Part shown: in pieces, positions 32,611 to 50,266 of the stretch | Numbering within the stretch: position 1 is the first letter of the stretch | Layout of the letters: every line of letters starts with the position of its first letter | DNA from: Lachnospiraceae bacterium | GTDB taxonomy: Bacteria; Bacillota; Clostridia; Lachnospirales; Lachnospiraceae | DNA: 64,000 nt | NCBI GenBank assembly: GCA_022763925.1 | Contig: JALERW010000016.1 | Coordinates: 1-64,000 of the forward strand | Direction: 5' to 3' | Made by a program: the position numbers and the translations under genes | Notes under the pieces: model-generated | What the model saw: only the letters and a program-made list of their open reading frames with translations | Databases searched by the model: none | What the model was told of the DNA's origin: nothing

Positions 32611-32902
32611 AACAGAATGAAGAGGAAACCGAAGAGAGAGAGTAGTAGATCAGTGTAAGAAGGTTCAGAGAGCCGCCGGTGGTGTGAGTGCGGTACGGAT
32701 TCCTGATTGAATGGACTCTTGAGGACAGCCTGAAAGGCAGTATAACATTACTGCATAGTAGGCGCTGGCGGGAACCGAACCCGTTATCAATCAGGCATGT
32801 ATGTTTGTACATGAGAGAGTGGACTATAAGTCAATTTGAGTGGTACCGCGATAATGATCAGATTATTACCGCCTCAGAATTTTTTCTGAGGCGGTTTTTG
32901 TT
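32611..32902 (+). ncRNA. T-box leader, specifier predicted UGG (tryptophan)
   Basis: Specifier context TGATTGAATGGACTCTTGAG (TGG 32712-32714); T-box core TTGAGTGGTACCGCG (32836-32850); terminator ACCGCCTCAG...CTGAGGCGGTTTTT (32868-32900). Confidence 0.9.
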
Positions 32903-46885: not shown

Positions 46886-46989
46886 GTTAAGAAAGTGTAA
46901 AGAAAAACAAGAAAATTTGAACATTTAACCGTAAATCTGATGATATGGCCAAAAAAATGACAAAAAAAATATAAAATCAGGGAAATACA

Positions 46990-46996
46990 TGTCGAA
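46990..46996 (+). promoter_or_regulatory. Spo0A box upstream of spo0A
   Basis: TGTCGAA, exact match to the 0A-box consensus. Confidence 0.55.
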
Positions 46997-47108
46997 AATG
47001 GTTGATGTTTTTTCGTTGCCTGAGCAATTAGCGATTATTATAATAAAAAAAAGATCCTTCCCGCGAAAGGACACAGAAACAGTAGCTGTAAGTGAAAGGA
47101 GTAACAAT

Positions 47109-47909
47109 ATGGAAAAGCTGAATGTAGCGATTGCTGATGATAACGAAAGAATGCTGGAACTACTTGACGAAATTATCAGTCAGGATCAGGAGCTGGAAAT
47201 TGTCGGAAAAGCGGTGAACGGAGAGGAAGCATATCAGCTGATCAAGTCCAAGCATCCGGATGTGGTGCTTCTGGATATCATTATGCCGAAGCTGGACGGT
47301 CTGAGTGTTATGGATAAGATCAACCATGACAGCGAGCTGACAAAGCATCCGACCTTTATTGTGATCACCGCGATCGGGCAGGAAAAGATTACGGAGAATG
47401 CCTTTGCAATGGGCGCGGATTACTATATTATGAAACCGTTTGATAACGAGATGATCATCAACCGGATCAAACAGATGAAAAACGGACTGCGCAGAAAGGG
47501 AACACAGGAGCAGCGGGGGCCAAAAGCCTGTGAGAGCAAGGAAACCTATCTGGATTATAATCTGGAGACCGATGTGACTGACATGATCCATGAGATCGGT
47601 GTTCCTGCTCATATAAAGGGCTATCAGTATCTGAGAGATGCCATTATCATGTCGGTGAAGGATATGGATATGCTGAATTCCATTACCAAAATTCTGTATC
47701 CGACAATCGCGAAAATGCATCAGACGACGCCGAGCCGGGTGGAACGTGCAATCCGTCATGCCATCGAGGTGGCATGGAGCAGAGGGAAAATGGATACGAT
47801 TGATGAACTGTTCGGCTATACGGTGAGCAATGGAAAAGGGAAACCGACCAATTCGGAGTTCATTGCCCTGATTGCCGACCGGATCCGTCTGGAATATAAA
47901 AACCGTTGA
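47109..47909 (+). CDS. spo0A: Sporulation transcription factor Spo0A
   Basis: Receiver domain ([17 protein letters not shown]) plus C-terminal HTH ([30 protein letters not shown]); start at ATG 47109 after AAAGGAG. Confidence 0.96.
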
Positions 47910-48038: not shown

Positions 48039-49481
48039 ATGAAGAAGGTGTTGTTTGTCGCATCGGAAGCGGTTCCGTTTATTAAGACCGGAGGCCTGGC
48101 TGACGTTGTAGGTTCTTTGCCTAAATGCTTTGACAAGGAAGAATATGACGTCAGGGTTATTATACCGAAATATATGTGCATGAAAGAGGAATGGAAGAGC
48201 CAGCTGAAGTATCTGGGACATTTTTATATGGATCTGTCCTGGAGAAGTCAGTATGTGGGTATACTGGAATTGAAGTATAACGGGATCCAGTACTATTTCA
48301 TTGACAATGAGTATTACTTTGCCGGACCGAAGCCATACGGCAATATTTATGAAGATATCGAGAAGTTTGCATTCTTCTCCAAGGCAGCACTTTCTGCCCT
48401 TCCGGTGATCGGCTTCCAGCCGGACGTGGTACACTGCCATGACTGGCAGACCGGACTGATACCGGTATTTCTTAAGGACCGCTTCCATGAGGGACAGTTT
48501 TTTGCCAACATGAAGTCTGTAATCACGATTCACAATCTGAAATTCCAGGGAGTATGGGATGTGAAGACGGTGAAGGATATCACGGGACTTCCTTCTTATT
48601 ACTTTACGCCGGACAAGCTGGAAGCCTACGGAGATGCCAATTACCTGAAGGGCGGAATTGTATATGCGGATGCGATCACAACGGTCAGCCGCACCTATGC
48701 GGAGGAGATCAAGACACCGTTCTACGGGGAGAAGCTGAATGGACTGTTATGTGCGAGAGCTAATTCTCTGCGCGGCATTGTAAACGGTATTGATTACGAG
48801 GAGTATAATCCGGAGACGGATCAGTTCCTGGAGAAGAATTATTCCATTGAGAACTGGCGTCGTCAGAAGGTGAAGAATAAGCTGGCCCTGCAGAGAGAAC
48901 TCGGACTTCAGGAAGACAGGAAGATCATGACGATCGGCATTGTATCCCGTTTGACCGATCAGAAAGGCTTTGATCTGATTGCCTATATCATGGATGAGCT
49001 CTGTCAGGATGAAGTGCAGCTGATTGTCCTTGGTACCGGTGAAGAGAAATATGAGAATATGTTCCGGCATTTTGACTGGAAGTATCATGACAAGGTGTCT
49101 GCAAACATTTTCTATTCCGAGGCGCTGTCTCATAAGATTTACGGATCCTGTGATGCATTCCTTATGCCGTCTCTGTTTGAGCCGTGCGGACTCAGCCAGC
49201 TGATGAGCCTTCGTTACGGAACGGTGCCGATCGTCCGGGAGACCGGAGGGCTGAAGGATACGGTGGAGCCTTATAACGAGTATGAGGGGACCGGAACCGG
49301 TTTCAGCTTCAGAAATTACAATGCACACGAGATGCTTGCCACGATCCGCTATGCCGAGAAGATTTTCTATGACAACAAGCGGGACTGGAACAAGATCGTT
49401 GACCGTGCCATGGCTGCAGATTTCTCCTGGGATGCCTCTGCCGCCCAGTATAAAGAGATGTATGACTGGCTGATCGGATAA
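48039..49481 (+). CDS. glgA: Glycogen synthase
   Basis: KKVLFVASEAVPFIKTGGLADVVGSLPK; SLFEPCGLSQLMSLRYGTVPIVRETGGLKDTV. Confidence 0.96.
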   Translation: MKKVLFVASEAVPFIKTGGLADVVGSLPKCFDKEEYDVRVIIPKYMCMKEEWKSQLKYLGHFYMDLSWRSQYVGILELKYNGIQYYFIDNEYYFAGPKPYGNIYEDIEKFAFFSKAALSALPVIGFQPDVVHCHDWQTGLIPVFLKDRFHEGQFFANMKSVITIHNLKFQGVWDVKTVKDITGLPSYYFTPDKLEAYGDANYLKGGIVYADAITTVSRTYAEEIKTPFYGEKLNGLLCARANSLRGIVNGIDYEEYNPETDQFLEKNYSIENWRRQKVKNKLALQRELGLQEDRKIMTIGIVSRLTDQKGFDLIAYIMDELCQDEVQLIVLGTGEEKYENMFRHFDWKYHDKVSANIFYSEALSHKIYGSCDAFLMPSLFEPCGLSQLMSLRYGTVPIVRETGGLKDTVEPYNEYEGTGTGFSFRNYNAHEMLATIRYAEKIFYDNKRDWNKIVDRAMAADFSWDASAAQYKEMYDWLIG

Positions 49482-49528: not shown

Positions 49529-49559
49529 AGAATAAAAACCCTCCTTCTTTGTCATACTA
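49529..49559 (+). promoter_or_regulatory. SigmaG-like promoter of coat-protein genes
   Basis: AGAATA (49529-49534)-N18-CATACTA (49553-49559), near TGAATA-N17/18-CATACTA. Confidence 0.5.
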
Positions 49560-49584
49560 AGGGTGCGTAAGGCAAAGAAGGAGG
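49540..49584 (+). repeat. Inverted repeat containing the coat-gene Shine-Dalgarno
   Basis: CCTCCTTCTTTG (49540-49551) / CAAAGAAGGAGG (49573-49584), perfect 12 bp. Confidence 0.9.
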
Positions 49585-49591
49585 TATTTTT

Positions 49592-49780
49592 ATGACAGCA
49601 CAGTTATCGGAAATCGATCTGCAGCATTTAAGACACCTGATCATCGGTTATGATACCTGCAGCAGCAAGATGCAGGCCTATGCCAATGAGGCACAGGATC
49701 CGCAGGTAAAACAGTATTTTCAGAAATCCGCACAGTCTGCCCGGGAGAACAAGCAGCAGCTGATGCAGTTTCTGGGGTAG
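49592..49780 (+). CDS. Small CotF-like spore coat protein (N-terminal-type half)
   Basis: LSEIDLQHLRHLIIGYDTCSSKMQAYANEAQDPQVKQYFQKSAQSARENKQQLMQFL resembles coat/CotF-type helical proteins. Confidence 0.65.
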   Translation: MTAQLSEIDLQHLRHLIIGYDTCSSKMQAYANEAQDPQVKQYFQKSAQSARENKQQLMQFLG

Positions 49781-49804: not shown

Positions 49805-50056
49805 ATGGAAGAAAAGGTAATGGTATCGGATGCCCTGACGGGCGTCAAGGCCGAGACAAAAATGCTCGGAGAAATGATTCTGGAGACCGGCTGCAGGGAA
49901 CTGAAACAGACTCTGAAGCAGCTGCGCAACCAGAGTGAAATGGCCCAGGAGGAGATTTTTCAGATTGCCCGGGCGAAGGAATATTATGTGCCTGCAGCCC
50001 AGGCAACGGCTGAAGAAATAAAGCACGTAAAAACAGTTCTGGAAAAGCTTTCCTGA
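49805..50056 (+). CDS. CotF-like spore coat protein
   Basis: EEKVMVSDALTGVKAETKMLGEMILETGCRELKQTLKQLRNQSEMAQEEIFQIARAKEYYVPA; SD AAGGAGG. Confidence 0.7.
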   Translation: MEEKVMVSDALTGVKAETKMLGEMILETGCRELKQTLKQLRNQSEMAQEEIFQIARAKEYYVPAAQATAEEIKHVKTVLEKLS

Positions 50057-50096
50057 CCCCTTCGCCGGGATGGCGTATACGGGAAAAAAGGAAAAC

Positions 50097-50134
50097 AAAA
50101 AGGCGGAAGATTTTGGGGGATCTTCCGCCTTTTT
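50097..50134 (+). terminator. Rho-independent terminator
   Basis: AAAAGGCGGAAGAT...ATCTTCCGCCTTTTT. Confidence 0.85.
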
Positions 50135-50266
50135 GATGAAAATAATCAGAAGCCGTTCCGGGATGAGCCATTATGCACAAAGCCGGGATTGTCAAATTTG
50201 GGAAAAATGCGGGAAGAATTTGATTGACAACCGAGGGAAAGTATAATAGTATTGTATTAGAAAAAA

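Follow-up and report, generated by a model that had tools for sequence, protein, structure and literature searches.

A hairpin between glgA and a small spore-type gene in Lachnospiraceae as a probable terminator, Shine-Dalgarno lock and forespore promoter in one element

We analysed a 64,000-nt stretch of DNA from a Lachnospiraceae gut bacterium (hereafter the window), in which a perfect 12-bp inverted repeat precedes a small spore-type gene located behind glgA, with the Shine-Dalgarno sequence (SD) of that gene inside the 3' arm. Judged from the sequence, this repeat most likely forms the intrinsic terminator of glgA, with the SD of the next gene acting as 3' stem and the U-tract as spacer between SD and AUG, to which is added a forespore promoter whose start would skip the 5' arm. 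The explanation that we favour, and hold to be probable, is that terminator, SD lock and threaded forespore promoter are combined in a single compact DNA element.

Results

The hairpin lies between glgA and two small spore-type genes

The genes that surround the hairpin are the following.

46989-47909, upstream, before glgA: spo0A
48039-49481, + strand: glgA, glycogen synthase, from which read-through into the spore gene would come (NCBIfam NF001898, 668.9 bits against a cut-off of 603; Pfam Glyco_transf_5)
49592-49780, + strand: 62-aa small spore-type protein, a distant Coat_F relative (20.3 bits), conserved in Lachnospiraceae
49805-50056, + strand: 83-aa Coat_F protein, encoded by the second gene of what is presumed to be one unit (Pfam PF07875, 59.7 bits against a cut-off of 25.7)

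The two small spore-type ORFs are followed by recA. The original prediction had called the gene at 49592 a coat gene; this label clearly suits the next ORF (49805-50056), whereas ORF 49592 stays below the curated Pfam Coat_F cut-off (20.3 against 25.7 bits), and a Coat_F match at E 0.01 was obtained for only six of twelve relatives. The gap from the Coat_F ORF to recA holds another hairpin (50096-50135), strong and palindromic, with runs of A and T; listed on the - strand, it resembles a bidirectional terminator.

From the glgA stop to the hairpin, a terminator scan of the + strand returned no terminator-like site; the hairpin itself is missing from the scan list because its loop exceeds the 3-8 nt that the scan admits. 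No known RNA family was found at the hairpin with Rfam; elsewhere in the window, a T-box leader (32623-32879) and a group II intron fragment (510-624) reached the Rfam gathering score.

A promoter-like sequence is embedded in the hairpin

Re-reading the sequence, we found every predicted coordinate and letter of the repeat, the SD and the promoter to be correct. The features, all on the + strand, are arranged as follows.

49530-49534, + strand: -35-like GAATA of the sigmaG/sigmaF type (AGAATA from 49529), read from the sequence and recurring in relatives
49535-49552, + strand: 18-nt promoter spacer with the whole left arm inside
49540-49551, + strand: left (5') arm CCTCCTTCTTTG, complementary to the SD region
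49553-49559, + strand: -10-like CATACTA in the hairpin loop region, kept in relatives; here with T and A flanks that follow a sigmaG-like rule
49565-49568, + strand: predicted transcription start zone, 3' of the left arm, placed from the position of the -10
49573-49584, + strand: right (3') arm CAAAGAAGGAGG, from sequence and fold
49579-49584, + strand: Shine-Dalgarno AGGAGG within the right arm, read from the sequence
49585-49591, + strand: TATTTTT, terminator U-tract and SD-AUG spacer in one, a T-tract that is kept at glgA-adjacent loci

The coordinates thus agree with the proposed layout, in which the left arm sits wholly within the spacer and the -10, beginning two bases past this arm, falls in the loop. 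In RNA, the stem continues inward beyond the 12 bp with a G-U and a C-G pair, one mismatch and three more pairs closing a 9-nt loop, and A5/U5 lengthens it at its outer end. For the whole region the predicted free energy is -29.3 kcal/mol (z = -5.6), which none of 200 shuffles equalled. In an RNA starting at 49563, the hairpin is absent and the fold is not better than that of shuffles. The predicted probability that the SD is unpaired is ~0.002 in the read-through RNA and 0.59 in the short RNA, so that the release of the SD anticipated for the short transcript is indeed predicted by the folds. When the upstream DNA was dinucleotide-shuffled 2000 times, complements of the SD region never exceeded 9 nt, compared with the 12 observed, and an occlusion of the SD matching that of the real sequence was reached in 3 of 500 shuffles.

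The promoter letters, GAATA-N18-tCATACTAa, fit the sigmaG type (GNATR, 17-18 nt, CATANTA, with an A after and no G before the -10). By a flank rule that separates sigmaG from sigmaF promoters in C. difficile (PMC3789822), the letters of this promoter are closer to the sigmaG than to the sigmaF type. Among the relatives, the flanks of the -10 are mixed, and some have GATACTA or CATACTG. The genome of the window carries SASP genes and a sigG-like gene that scores 417 bits, the best of its family, under the curated cut-off of 457. Note that C. difficile cotF is under sigmaK, in the mother cell (PMC3789822), so the compartment of its relative at 49592 is not certain.

Predicted SD occlusion and the T-tract follow glgA

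Relatives of the 62-aa protein were collected from whole genomes and the GTDB species set and grouped by position: in the glgA-adjacent group (27 loci) the gene follows glgA on the same strand at a distance of up to 170 nt, and in the comparison group (55 loci) no glgA was found upstream. The short transcript was approximated as the 32 nt preceding the ATG. The search for the hairpin upstream of the same gene in relatives, proposed as a check in the original prediction, was positive: the SD is predicted to be occluded at 25 of the 27 loci behind glgA versus 26 of the 55 without it, weakly (<0.25) in the latter (Fisher p = 6.5e-5), and a T-tract separates SD and ATG at 26/27 versus 1/55. Since the loci have a common ancestry, these counts should be read as a pattern and not as independent trials. 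The lone T-tract locus of the comparison group (L101) begins close to the end of a contig and could in fact be adjacent to glgA. With a threshold chosen afterwards (<0.03), occlusion is near-complete at 22/27 versus 1/55 loci. Within the glgA-adjacent group, the median predicted accessibility of the SD is 0.0006 in the read-through RNA versus 0.56 in the short RNA; L102 and L069 are glgA-adjacent, yet their SD is not strongly occluded. At eight further loci where glgA is farther away, two have an occluded SD and four a T-tract. Lachnoclostridium sp. An131 is one culturable relative that has the layout.

The distribution of the T-tract bears on one rival explanation, namely that the hairpin is just the intrinsic terminator of glgA, compaction having placed its 3' stem on the SD, and that occlusion carries no regulatory weight since termination stops nearly all read-through. 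The near-restriction of the T-tract to the glgA-adjacent group speaks for it, as does the lack of any other terminator-like site after glgA; moreover, a distinct hairpin belongs to glgA at three loci (L005, L080, L087), and the coat-type gene there has a free or less occluded SD. A plain terminator, however, has no need of the SD as a stem, and the SD is nevertheless used in this way in 25 of 27 cases. Three other loci (L056, L059, L060) retain the SD-pairing arm across a long loop even though glgA has its own hairpin, and two loci chosen by pattern, L146 (thrS followed by DUF1540) and L136 (asparaginase followed by spoVT), have a paired SD and no T-tract. We consider a terminator without regulatory consequence to be unlikely, if still a serious competitor. 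In L056, L059 and L060, the loop between the SD-pairing arms exceeds 100 nt, enlarged by inserts, that of L060 being a direct repeat of ~110 nt.

Intrinsic termination is suggested by the U-tract, by the location where glgA ends and by the absence of another terminator-like site. The arm retained in L056, L059 and L060 and the pairing without a T-tract in L146 and L136, in turn, make two functions in one element the best reading. The lock put forward by the original prediction is thus supported as a plausible mechanism by its layout, by the freeing of the SD that the folds predict and by its recurrence; the hairpin would, however, be no less a terminator of glgA than a translational lock, and termination would be an equal, perhaps the primary, function. 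The simple terminator named as the main alternative would, on this reading, be one of two roles.

The arms change together and the promoter-like motif keeps its register

The arm sequences diverge strongly among species while their complementarity is maintained, and the stem positions just inside the SD each show several standard pair types. Swapping arms between species weakened the mean pairing from -21.4 to -13.5 kcal/mol, and none of 20000 permutations equalled the true pairing. When the SD was masked the contrast was weak (1363/20000), partly because masking cuts the helix. The consensus that RNAalifold drew from the sequence-based alignment was weak (8 pairs, -0.6 kcal/mol), owing to shifts in the register of the left arms, and we relied instead on arm swaps and on folds of the individual sequences.

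The register of -35, spacer, -10 and arm is kept. A -10-like site is present in 24 of 28 glgA-adjacent relatives, and a full -35 match 17-18 nt from it in 21 of 28, compared with 0.2 expected from mononucleotide shuffles. The left arm coincides with the promoter-like spacer in 23/23 representatives, for which the best-pairing candidate was chosen by motif search with a looser motif allowed.

A near-perfect palindrome located at a promoter could also be a DNA element, such as a protein-binding operator or a cruciform. The arms differ among species and change together, the distance between them varies widely, and the T-tract and the tie to glgA point to RNA; we rejected an operator on the co-variation and variable spacing of the arms, and regard a DNA element of any such kind as very improbable.

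The same layout occurs behind other housekeeping genes

Searching by pattern, we found the same layout at a small lipoprotein gene behind dapB in ~10 genomes, at GerA-family genes (L171, directly behind the dUTPase gene dut, L172 and L173) and, with a paired SD and no T-tract, at the thrS and asparaginase loci described above. Among dapB loci that were not selected by pattern, the layout is present in L185, partly present in L194, and absent from L192 and L201. The lipoproteins behind dapB (L036, L037, L040, L162-L165) are small and rich in Ser, Thr, Gly and Asn, with a sigmaG-like -10 inside the SD-pairing hairpin; for L036, the one scanned, no Pfam or NCBIfam match was found. The SD lock was found in none of 28 SASP genes, which are also expressed in the forespore, and a lock common to all forespore genes was rejected on this ground. 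The mixed dapB sample, the negative SASP genes and the cases outside glgA indicate that the layout is not shared by all forespore genes and not limited to glgA.

The raw number of arm-pattern matches did not rise above a reversed-pattern control. Since the arms are complementary in the reversed pattern too, we followed this control, which had failed to separate, with a second one using a scrambled -10, and the search matched 12 of 250 genomes with CATACTA versus 2 with the scrambled -10. These controls address the last explanation, that a strong SD finds complementary stretches upstream by chance, in favour of which are the weak pairing (<0.25) at 26 of 55 loci without glgA and the raw counts equal to the reversed control; it is rejected by the shuffles, in which 12 bp was reached in 0/2000, and by the controls, with near-complete occlusion (at the <0.03 set afterwards) in 22/27 versus 1/55 loci, 0/28 SASP genes below 0.05 and the 2 versus 12 genomes, so that chance is disfavoured computationally and hardly credible.

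Discussion

What the sequences directly provide is the anatomy of the element, the way it is conserved while its arms change in a complementary manner, its link with an adjacent glgA, and the predicted exposure and occlusion of the SD. At the end of glgA, a stable stem is followed directly by a U-tract, as in intrinsic terminators; and in the folds of the long and short RNAs, the SD is held in a helix that requires a 5' arm present only in the read-through RNA, as in control of the T4 gene e type.

We propose that an RNA derived from glgA would contain both arms, whose strong hairpin and trailing U's would act as an intrinsic terminator and end the message near the AUG of the spore gene. In RNA that reads through, the SD would be held in the 3' stem and the spore gene would not be translated from it. 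A forespore promoter of the sigmaG type would be threaded through the same DNA, its spacer being the 5' arm and its -10 lying just past it; because of this arrangement, the forespore transcript would start after the 5' arm and lack the terminator, leaving the SD free and the U-tract to serve as spacer to the AUG. Termination, repression, the use of sigmaG and a need for silence outside the forespore are what we infer from these features.

Several known systems resemble this arrangement. In IS10, read-through RNA hides the ribosome binding site (RBS) of the transposase and the element's own RNA does not; IS10 differs from the present case in being a mobile element, with a different purpose. Ordinary intrinsic terminators share with the window a stable stem directly followed by a U-tract, here at the end of glgA; in the window, by contrast, the next gene's SD forms the 3' stem, and the hairpin encloses a predicted promoter. 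For phage T4 gene e (lysozyme) and I-TevI, the cited sections describe longer early transcripts that sequester the RBS in a helix (PMC3014915; PMC2988022); RNAs made from late promoters, which lie in the DNA encoding the 5' strand, lack the helix and are translated efficiently, gene e showing a 100-fold effect (PMC3014915). As in the window, the RBS is hidden in the long RNA and open in the RNA from a promoter within the 5' strand; unlike the window, where the gene is bacterial and developmental and the arm is the promoter spacer, T4 is a phage with the late sigma factor gp55, and these sections describe no terminator U-tract. In B. subtilis, a hairpin of 20+ bp is proposed, in the cited portion of the source, to block translation of spoIIG read-through into sigG (spoIIIG), and cannot form in RNA from the forespore sigG promoter (PMC5942855). 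There too a read-through hairpin is missing from the forespore transcript; the genes and the organism are different, and that portion describes a translation block rather than a shared terminator. The principle is therefore already known, established for T4 gene e and proposed for B. subtilis sigG, and what is new is the fusion with a terminator, the layout with the spacer as arm, and the spread across Lachnospiraceae.

Tentatively, and at slightly less than even chances, this family may use the layout as a standard composite part that insulates late spore genes behind housekeeping genes, with multiple origins (glgA/coat-type, dapB/lipoprotein, dut/GerA, thrS/DUF1540 and asparaginase/spoVT). 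If so, a single choice of start site would set both termination and translation.

Overall, the element would provide a minimal, protein-free silencing of a late developmental gene behind a housekeeping gene, in which promoter choice alone would decide whether the same DNA signals a stop or an open start. On this account, a sigma-factor promoter can carry a second code in its sequence-neutral spacer, and the conserved layout offers a search pattern for forespore genes. It also makes a directly testable case of how leakage of sporulation genes is controlled outside the Bacillus models.
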